From Planctomycetota bacterium (GTDB lineage Bacteria > Planctomycetota > Phycisphaerae > UBA1845 > PWPN01): 64,000 bases of DNA. This document shows, piece after piece, positions 31,212 through 33,749 of this stretch (positions within the stretch are counted from its first letter, which is position 1; every line of letters begins with the position of its first letter). The translations under genes were made by a program, and so were the position numbers. The notes beneath the pieces were generated by a model. That model saw only the letters and a program-made list of their open reading frames with translations, had not been told where the DNA came from and searched no databases. The stretch is taken from positions 1 through 64,000 of the forward strand of contig JAKLEZ010000029.1 in assembly GCA_022711465.1 (NCBI GenBank). The letters run 5' to 3'.

Positions 31212-32119
31212 GCGGCGTTCTCCGTCAAACTGTGTAGATACCCCATCGGATGGCCGACGGCCATCCCTACCCGTCACACAGAACAATAGGGGAACCCGCG
31301 TCCCCTTTCCAGCCGGGTGTGGGCAAGACACCCCAGTTCTGGAGCGTCGCCGGCTTGAACCGCCCTCAACAACAACCGCCGTGACCGGGGAGGTGGCCTT
31401 GAAGTTGATCGTGATGGGACGGATCAGATCATTCTCCACGACCAGCGTTCCGCTGTAGGGAATGTGCGATCCATAGCCTGCCCTGGGCATGTCAAGTCCG
31501 GCTCGCTGATTTCCGGCAGTGCCCGGCATGGCTTAGAGCCGAAGTCGATGGCCAACTGCACAGCAGTCCCCTCGCCGAGGGAACTACCTGCGGTCACCGC
31601 CGGGCAGGTCACCAAGGCGAGGTCTCGGCCGGCGGAATCACGACTATCGGACGAGACAATCTGAAGAAGCCCACCGTCGAGATGGTCCCCGGTGGCATTG
31701 CGGGTCACACCCGTCGCCTGCCCGAGCCCGCCGGGAGCCAGACAGACGGCCACAACCGCCTGACGCTTCAAAGCCGTCCGCTCGCTCGCAACCGGTCCAA
31801 ACGCGCCTCCCGGGCTTGGGCAGCCTTGCCCCAAAACGAACGCTACGGCTGACACAACTCCTTCTAGCACAAGGACTTGTCTCGATTGCAGAGCAGGTCT
31901 CCGGTCGGTTGGGCCAGGGCCATCAAAGCCGAACTCGGACCGTCAGGCTCGTCGGTCCGCGAGCCCAGGGGCATGAGCGACGAGACCCGGGCGTTTCCGG
32001 CCAACCTGGTGCCTGTGGCCGTGTCTATTGGGGTGTAGGCTTCGCTTTCCTGTGCTGTCACCGCCGGTAAGCCCTGCGAGACCCGGACGAGATTGACCGG
32101 ACCGCGGAAAGGAATGGCT
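31212..32119. other. 900-base gap, possible decayed exported-protein gene
   Basis: No convincing gene is present. Two minus-strand frames are suggestive. One (about 31870 to 31424) has beta-type text such as GGLLQIVSSDS and GTAVQLAIDFGS. A one-base frame change after TCPGQ could continue it into [16 protein letters not shown] and [11 protein letters not shown] near 31400-31480. Neither frame has a ribosome site or a recognised domain. I read this as possible gene remains. Confidence 0.3.
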
Positions 32120-32488
32120 ATGAGTCCCCGAACCATGCAGACGGCGTGCAATCGTGCGATGACCTTCGCCTCTCCGATTCTCGCCCTGACCGCTTTGGCC
32201 GCCCTCAGCATGGGAGGGTGCGACTTCGAGGGCAGCTTCATTCCTGTCGTGCCGGTCTACGGCGACTACGAATACGACGACGAATACTACTACGATGAGG
32301 TGTGGTTCGACGGGTACTACGACGACCCGTGGTACTACTACGATGACTACTACTATTACGATGATTACTACTACTACGATGACTATTACTACTATGACGA
32401 ATACTACTACGACGATTACTACTACTATGAAGACGCCTACTACGACGATTACTGCTACGACGGCTACTGCTATGACGAAGTCTGGTAG
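32120..32488 (+). CDS. Tyr/Asp-repeat lipoprotein
   Basis: The 122-residue product has a lipoprotein-type leader (hydrophobic LALTALAALSMGG then Cys) followed by about 88 residues that are mostly tyrosine and aspartate, roughly 36 Tyr and 22 Asp by eye. The core is a chain of DDYYYY / DEYYYDD units (about residues 55-105), ending DYCYDGYCYDEVW with two Cys. I prefer the ATG at 32120, which has AAAGGA at good spacing; ATG at 32114 is the alternative. I do not recognise the family. The sequence should be extended or amyloid-like, strongly acidic and able to bind cations. It stands alone between the redox region and proB. Confidence 0.8.
   Translation: MSPRTMQTACNRAMTFASPILALTALAALSMGGCDFEGSFIPVVPVYGDYEYDDEYYYDEVWFDGYYDDPWYYYDDYYYYDDYYYYDDYYYYDEYYYDDYYYYEDAYYDDYCYDGYCYDEVW
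32270..32440 (+). repeat. TAC/GAT-rich tandem repeat inside the Tyr/Asp lipoprotein
   Basis: Imperfect tandem units built from TACTACTAC and GATGA with periods of 15 to 18 bases. Tyrosine codons switch between TAC and TAT, so the protein repeat is better kept than the DNA repeat, which suggests selection on the protein. Confidence 0.75.
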
Positions 32489-32609
32489 TTCAAACTCTGC
32501 CGCATGAGCTGTTCAGCGCTTCCCTCGGTAGATTTCGAGGCCTTGGTTTCTCGAGGTCCCGGTGCCGCACCTCCCGGCTTCCAGCATTCCGCGTTTTGGC
32601 CTTCCGCCC

Positions 32610-33749
32610 CTACTGTTCCCCTTTTCCCCCGATGAGGACGAGATGATCCCGGTGCACGGCCTCGTCGAAGGTCTTGTGGCCCAGGATGGCCGCGATCTCC
32701 GATGACTTCCGGCCTTTGACCTTGTCGAGTTCCTGGCTGCTGAAGTTGCTCTTGCCGCGGGCGATGGTCTCGCCCTGAGCGTTCACCAGGGCAATGATCG
32801 CCCCCCGGTCGAATGCGCCGGTTACCCGGGTAATACCACGCGGAAGAAGACTCTTGCCGTTGCGGACGACCGCCAGGACGGCCCCGTCATCAAGCACGAC
32901 CTTGCCTGCCGGCCGTACCGCGTTGCGGATCCAGCGGTGCCGAGCGGAGATCTTGCGTTTTGCGGGCGCGAAGATCGTCCCCAGCTGCTCGCCATCCAGC
33001 AATCGCAGAAGCACGTCACGCTCGCGACCACTTGCCACAACGACGGCTTCTCCGGCTTCGGTCACCATCCGTGCGGCCGTGAGCTTCCCGCCCATGCCTC
33101 CGCTGCCGAGCTTCGAACGATCGGTACGAACGAGCCCTAAGGCCCCTTCGTCCACGCGAGGCACGAGATCCACACGTTGCCCTTCCGCATCGAGAAGGCC
33201 GTCAACGACGCTCAGAATCACCAGCAGGTCGGCCCGGAGCAGGTTGGCGAGCAACGCGGCAATGGTGTCATTGTCGGCGAAGCGATCGAGCTCATCCACC
33301 GCCACGGTGTCGTTCTCATTGATGATTGGGATGGCCCGCAGATGCTGCAGCGCCTCGATCGTATTCCGAATGTGGACATACCTGGCTCGATCTTCGAAGT
33401 CGGCACGGGTCAGTAGAAGCTGACCGGCGTGCAGGCCATACCGCTCGAGAACCCTGGCATAGAAGCCCATCAGGGTCGGTTGCCCGACGGCCGCGGCGGC
33501 CTGCAGGGCGGGCAGGGTCCGTGGGCGACTGGCCAGACCCGCAACCCCCATCCCCGCCCCCACCGCCCCGCTGGTCACCAGGGTGACGGCGATGCCCCGA
33601 CCCTGAATCAGAGCCAGCTGCCGACCCAGGCGGGCAATCAACGGCTTGTCCAGCTGACCGGTGTTGCCGGTCAGTACCCCCGTCCCTACCTTGACCACCA
33701 GGCTGCGAACGTTCTTCATCAGCTGCTTACGCAGTGTGCTGCTTGGCAT
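32610..33749 (-). CDS. proB: Glutamate 5-kinase
   Basis: The first enzyme of proline synthesis phosphorylates glutamate with ATP in the cytosol. The 379 residues hold an amino-acid kinase domain (SLVVKVGTGVLTG, TSGAVGAG, PIINENDTVAVDE, KLGSGGMGGKLTAA) and a C-terminal PUA domain from about residue 285. The ATG at 33749 is favoured because GAGAGG precedes it; this makes the gene overlap the end of waaA by 23 bases. An ATG at 33719 without a clear ribosome site would avoid the overlap. The next enzyme, proA, is not in the window. Confidence 0.95.
   Translation of the reverse strand: MPSSTLRKQLMKNVRSLVVKVGTGVLTGNTGQLDKPLIARLGRQLALIQGRGIAVTLVTSGAVGAGMGVAGLASRPRTLPALQAAAAVGQPTLMGFYARVLERYGLHAGQLLLTRADFEDRARYVHIRNTIEALQHLRAIPIINENDTVAVDELDRFADNDTIAALLANLLRADLLVILSVVDGLLDAEGQRVDLVPRVDEGALGLVRTDRSKLGSGGMGGKLTAARMVTEAGEAVVVASGRERDVLLRLLDGEQLGTIFAPAKRKISARHRWIRNAVRPAGKVVLDDGAVLAVVRNGKSLLPRGITRVTGAFDRGAIIALVNAQGETIARGKSNFSSQELDKVKGRKSSEIAAILGHKTFDEAVHRDHLVLIGGKGEQ

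Follow-up and report, generated by a model that had tools for sequence, protein, structure and literature searches.

A tyrosine- and aspartate-rich lipoprotein family in one order of Phycisphaerae and the promoter it has in common with a conserved ECF sigma gene

The main result of this analysis is an ECF-type promoter common to the genes of a Tyr/Asp-rich putative lipoprotein family and to a conserved ECF sigma gene, which is well supported by comparison of sequences. The window (the whole 64,000-nt stretch of DNA that was analysed) carries one member of this family. An odd low-complexity ORF thus turns out to belong to a lipoprotein family that extends across one order and is linked to a single, apparently autoregulated sigma factor, and its role is now testable. 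Exact promoter bases are available for mutation, and low-complexity genes lost by profile searches can be recovered via their promoter.

The window gene and the lipoprotein family

The ORF at 32120–32488 (+) encodes a putative lipoprotein of 122 amino acids, rich in Tyr and Asp and composed of leader, linker and tail. The ORF and its lipobox leader were as described in a previous sequence-only reading. The leader (residues 1–33, MSPRTMQTACNRAMTFASPILALTALAALSMGG; 32120–32218 (+)) ends with MGG. Judged by eye, it has the features expected of a signal peptidase II substrate: its N-terminus is basic, a hydrophobic stretch is present, and the cleavage site is marked by a Cys. The lipobox Cys34 codon (32219–32221 (+)) encodes a Cys that is invariant across the family alignment. 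The residue following it (32222–32224 in the window) is mostly Asp or Asn in the window protein and its homologues; either would alter membrane sorting in E. coli. The residue preceding it is Thr or Asn in several f8 members, as opposed to MGGC in the window, and both are unusual for signal peptidase II. The window protein is probably lipid-anchored at the envelope.

The mature part comprises 89 residues, including 36 Tyr (40%), 22 Asp, 7 Glu, 3 Trp, 3 Phe and 3 Cys, with neither Lys, Arg nor His and a net charge of -29. Two of the Cys lie close to the C-terminal end (DDYCYDGYCYDEVW) in a CYDGYC motif (32453–32470 (+)), which likely forms a small disulfide hairpin; a weak hairpin was seen in the model. 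Modelling with AF2 (without alignment) gave a mostly unstructured, low-confidence structure with a mean pLDDT of 51.5, suggesting that the mature protein is intrinsically disordered. No Pfam or NCBIfam profile matched the window protein at an E-value of 10 or below, and sequence comparison with the PDB yielded no match, in line with the prior statement that no described family resembles it.

The gene stands alone between its immediate neighbours, an upstream PQQ-type propeller gene in divergent and proB (32610–33749) in convergent orientation, which ruled out an operon with either. A Shine-Dalgarno sequence (AAAGGA, 32108–32113 (+)) is located 6 nt upstream of the ATG at 32120, and GGAG-type sites precede nearly all homologues. 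A V/I-rich antisense reading in a minus frame was ruled out, as both the codon-position pattern and the Shine-Dalgarno sites match the plus frame. The weak terminator-like hairpin at 32523–32540 (+) was near chance (1 found, 0.4 expected). An Rfam search for an RNA element gave no match, and no sigma-70 promoter was found.

The DDYYYY-type units of the tail occupy 32333–32462 (+), and the tail is also detectable as a tandem array at DNA level. Among the six units, 27 codon differences are synonymous and 8 non-synonymous; it is thus the protein sequence of the repeat that is maintained, while Tyr codons vary (31 TAC, 5 TAT). Both points had been made from the letters of the sequence, as had the two Cys near the end and the DDYYYY-type units, and all were borne out. 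In the sister species (G001), an ortholog with 88% identity is found in the same neighbourhood and differs by whole-codon indels in the tail. When the mature parts of ten homologous pairs, drawn from seven genera, were compared, 65 differences fell at first, 73 at second and 172 at third codon positions. dN/dS was about 0.1–0.4 where dS could be estimated; these values are only rough, since repeat alignments are partly uncertain and same-genus pairs share branches. Its retention at the same locus in the sister species and the predominance of third-position changes in the ten pairs mark the window ORF as a real gene, and the substitution pattern shows it to be under purifying selection.

For analysis of distribution, a profile was built from ten members and searched in 114 genomes of the window's order (class Phycisphaerae). 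A family gene was found in 41 of them, one per genome, with E down to 1e-22. Two genomes gave two profile rows each, both being split matches within a single ORF. Random origin at the observed frequency would give about one fifth of the positive genomes at least two copies, and none was observed (Poisson, ~1e-4). Some weak profile matches in f3 and f4 may not be true members. A class-wide profile search of 298 genomes gave 27 matches, all within the window's order, and a phylum-wide search of 294 genomes recovered the window's genome and three weak matches only. One of these weak matches (L259), from another family of the phylum, is a lipoprotein that has a glycine zipper and terminates in Tyr/Asp-rich sequence; it is probably convergent. 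The view that dense Tyr/Asp sequence is rare therefore held outside the order (three weak matches in 293 other genomes of the phylum) and failed inside it (41/114). Because one such gene is present in 41 of the 114 order genomes and class-wide matches are confined to the order, the tail is not regarded as random expansion. Further members missed by the profile were found via the promoter described below (G011 (CDVVGYDPYYVYDVYYVDYFYTPWYYW), G041, G044 and G053) or via their position beside polA (G089 and G092). No report of a Tyr/Asp lipoprotein family was found in the openly accessible literature. These data support a previously undescribed family with one copy per genome across one Phycisphaerae order, whose members may all descend from a single gene.

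What members have in common is layout and not sequence: a leader of 19–33 residues precedes the Cys, the next residue is usually Asp or Asn, and a short linker connects to a tail of aromatic and acidic character. Mature parts contain 18–47% aromatic and 17–36% acidic residues. In some members, G026 and G060 among them, Trp or Phe takes the place of Tyr, and the tail of G026 (L068) is a near-perfect GGWYDD repeat of about 12 units. Apart from the lipobox Cys, all but one of 36 tabulated members have either no Cys or a pair; the pair is present in the window protein and in most f8 members. Homologues with unrelated tails, which would have pointed to chance expansion of the repeat, were not encountered: tails vary in sequence and keep their aromatic-acidic composition.

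In nine f8 genomes (six genera), the family gene lies after polA. In seven f7 genomes (five genera), it is divergent from an FHA-domain-like gene that adjoins a Ser/Thr kinase gene and one for an ECF-like factor (neighbours at the f7 and f8 loci were named by eye from sequence). At these fixed loci the sequence drifts and the composition is kept, which looks like a clear bacterial case of selection on amino-acid composition, not sequence. No neighbourhood common to f1, f7 and f8 was found, and the remaining genera in the family of the window's genome gave no counterpart next to proB.

The ECF-type promoter and the sigma gene

For promoter identification, dyads were counted without bias in 33 non-redundant upstream regions. 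CTAAC-N15-GTGTC occurred 11 times, whereas in five shuffled sets the highest count for any dyad was 3. The aligned element, C(T/C)AACC-N14-(G/T/C)TGTC(A/T), starts 77–130 nt upstream of the ATG in most members and about 200 nt upstream in three f7 members. Of the 25 non-redundant members that do not belong to f4, 23 carry it with a score of at least 13, as compared to a fraction of 0.0008 of dinucleotide shuffles; this contrast is somewhat optimistic, since the score was shaped on the same sequences. Tests independent of this shaping are provided by the element at the sigma gene and by the promoter-first discovery of members.

In the window, the promoter at 32001–32026 reads CCAACC-TGGTGCCTGTGGCC-GTGTCT. 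It consists of the -35 element CCAACC (32001–32006 (+)) and, after a 14-nt spacer, the -10 element GTGTCT (32021–32026 (+)). Transcription would be expected to start near 32033. Taken alone within the window, this copy is no better than chance; it carries weight because it is conserved across species. The G001 promoter has one mismatch (CCAACT). In f4, the promoter is missing from the genes for Tyr/acid-rich lipoproteins but retained at the sigma genes. Because of this absence, f4 may represent a separate branch or be convergent.

Three exact promoter copies were found in the window's genome (G000). One falls inside a long ORF, and at another an ECF sigma gene begins (L144; Pfam Sigma70_r2 and r4). 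On contig C24 of G000 (L144:2042–3332), this apparently leaderless sigma gene is succeeded first by a putative anti-sigma gene and then by one for an STN-domain protein. The distant genome G032 has the same sigma/anti-sigma-like arrangement with a sigma factor of 51% identity. In both genomes, a protein of 217–230 aa with one likely membrane helix and no Pfam match adjoins the sigma gene at its 3' side.

The sigma gene is present in 96 of the 114 order genomes (E up to 1e-36), nearly always as a single copy. The same promoter element was found at its start in 65 of 69 orthologs read; sigma upstream regions had played no part in promoter definition. In most f1 and f7 genomes the sigma start codon lies 6 nt after the -10 box, and the message is therefore predicted to be leaderless. 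This comparison reveals an autoregulation signature at the sigma gene, and we infer that the Tyr/Asp lipoprotein gene is controlled directly by the conserved ECF sigma factor. No lipoprotein member was detected in most sigma-bearing genomes, partly because the short, drifting protein escapes profiles.

No report of the conserved ECF sigma factor and its regulon was found in the openly accessible literature. ECF factors generally use AAC-/CGT-type boxes and are autoregulated (PMC8103513). As in known autoregulated ECF sigma regulons (PMC8103513), an AAC-type -35 and a GTC-type -10 element are held at fixed spacing, the sigma gene has the same promoter, and most targets seen are exported. In contrast to these, the sigma start codon here often follows the -10 element by 6 nt with an apparently leaderless message, and the main target is an acidic-aromatic lipoprotein.

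Proposed role and alternatives

An envelope role of the window protein is supported by its lipoprotein signal and the ECF-type promoter. The preferred reading, to which we give an even chance, places the protein in an ECF envelope-stress regulon, as a lipoprotein that is disordered, polyanionic and aromatic and acts as a surface brush. The f4 members without the promoter, the sigma-bearing genomes in which no lipoprotein was detected, and the Thr or Asn ahead of the lipobox Cys in several f8 members count against it. An envelope signal would free the sigma factor, which would then activate its own gene and the lipoprotein gene, so that the membrane surface would be coated with a polyanionic, Tyr-rich, lipid-anchored brush. 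The brush would most likely work by composition, not fold: carboxylates could bind basic partners as well as divalent cations, sticky contacts could come from the aromatic rings, and the stressed envelope could be stiffened or shielded. The brush function is suggested by composition, and an envelope-stress signal is the presumed trigger. An analogy of working, not of homology, is offered by vertebrate SLRPs such as fibromodulin and osteoadherin, whose extensions are Tyr-rich, acidic and sulfation-prone (PMC7310474). Together with the Tyr-rich diatom protein mentioned below, they are the closest analogues found in composition. They likewise carry Tyr runs in a strongly acidic, highly variable extracellular segment, whereas the window protein is a bacterial lipoprotein without leucine-rich repeats.

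Metal binding could be the purpose of the protein and not a side effect, as it would be for a brush. The tail would then act as a store or buffer for Ca, Mg, Fe or another metal, and the sigma factor would answer metal or cation stress. The 29 acidic residues among 89 with no basic one, the two extra Cys in many members and a His/Cys-rich lipoprotein behind the same promoter in two genomes are consistent with such a store. Conserved fixed ligand spacing is absent, however, f7 members carry basic ends, and no metal transporter or regulator was seen beside family genes; we consider this reading unlikely.

There is a small chance that the lipoprotein is a feedback sensor, which would report the state of the envelope to the anti-sigma factor and end the response, like small stress lipoproteins elsewhere. 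The promoter is common to lipoprotein and sigma genes across families and few other targets are equally recurrent, but rapid sequence drift speaks against a specific protein contact, and many sigma-bearing genomes lack a detected lipoprotein.

Oxidation of Tyr (dityrosine), by which the surface would be hardened or radicals absorbed, was judged to have only a slight chance. It would fit the Tyr content of the mature part and the fact that Tyr-rich surface proteins aid wall stability in other organisms (PMC4220933). The diatom cell-wall protein AC3362, a Tyr-rich cell-surface protein with a reported role in wall biosynthesis or stability and not in adhesion (PMC4220933), is similar in this respect; it is eukaryotic, of different sequence and no bacterial lipoprotein, and thus not a relative. 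Replacement of Tyr by Trp or Phe in some members (G026, G060) argues against cross-linking, as does the absence of tyrosinase. Tyrosinase (PF00264) is absent from G000 and G001 and present in 3 of 61 relatives; a DOPA-type route is unlikely because the enzyme is missing from the G000 genome.

Neutral lengthening, through DNA slippage, of a functionless low-complexity stretch behind a leader could account for the tandem array and for the whole-codon length changes between sister species, but is very improbable and already largely refuted by the third-position bias of changes, the composition kept across many genera at fixed loci, the single copy per genome and the conserved promoter.

Other genes behind the promoter

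Other genes behind conserved promoter copies encode mostly secreted proteins or lipoproteins, and the Tyr/Asp lipoprotein gene is the most recurrent target found besides the sigma gene. A reversed control pattern yielded about half to two thirds as many single promoter matches; many single matches thus look like chance, and the regulon must be small.

In f7 and f8 genomes, copies of the promoter also precede genes for LPP20-type proteins (L146, L153, L157 and L160; Pfam check on L160 only). As they recur there in several genomes, LPP20 (PF02169) proteins likely belong to the same regulon; they have another domain and no similarity to the Tyr/Asp protein.

Basic Tyr/Gly/Arg/His-rich secreted proteins, opposite in charge to the acidic lipoprotein, are located behind the promoter in G022 (L159), G059 (L240) and G111 (L241). 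In some species, the acidic lipoprotein and basic Tyr/Arg-rich secreted proteins made from one promoter might form a coacervate-like protective envelope layer, an idea to which we attach little credence.

Secreted Ser/Asn/Ala/Gly-rich proteins (VVAxSIxSNGGxAS...) follow the promoter in G018 (L158) and G044 (L250). A His/Cys/Gly-rich lipoprotein (GHRHGYGCGHQWN), possibly a metal-binding protein, was found behind it in G091 (L151) and G092 (L154), and a similar protein is encoded after polA in G027 (L106). Another tiny lipoprotein family (VVVMDGEFHVVNTKTHRI) is located behind the promoter in G097 (L231) and G101 (L232).
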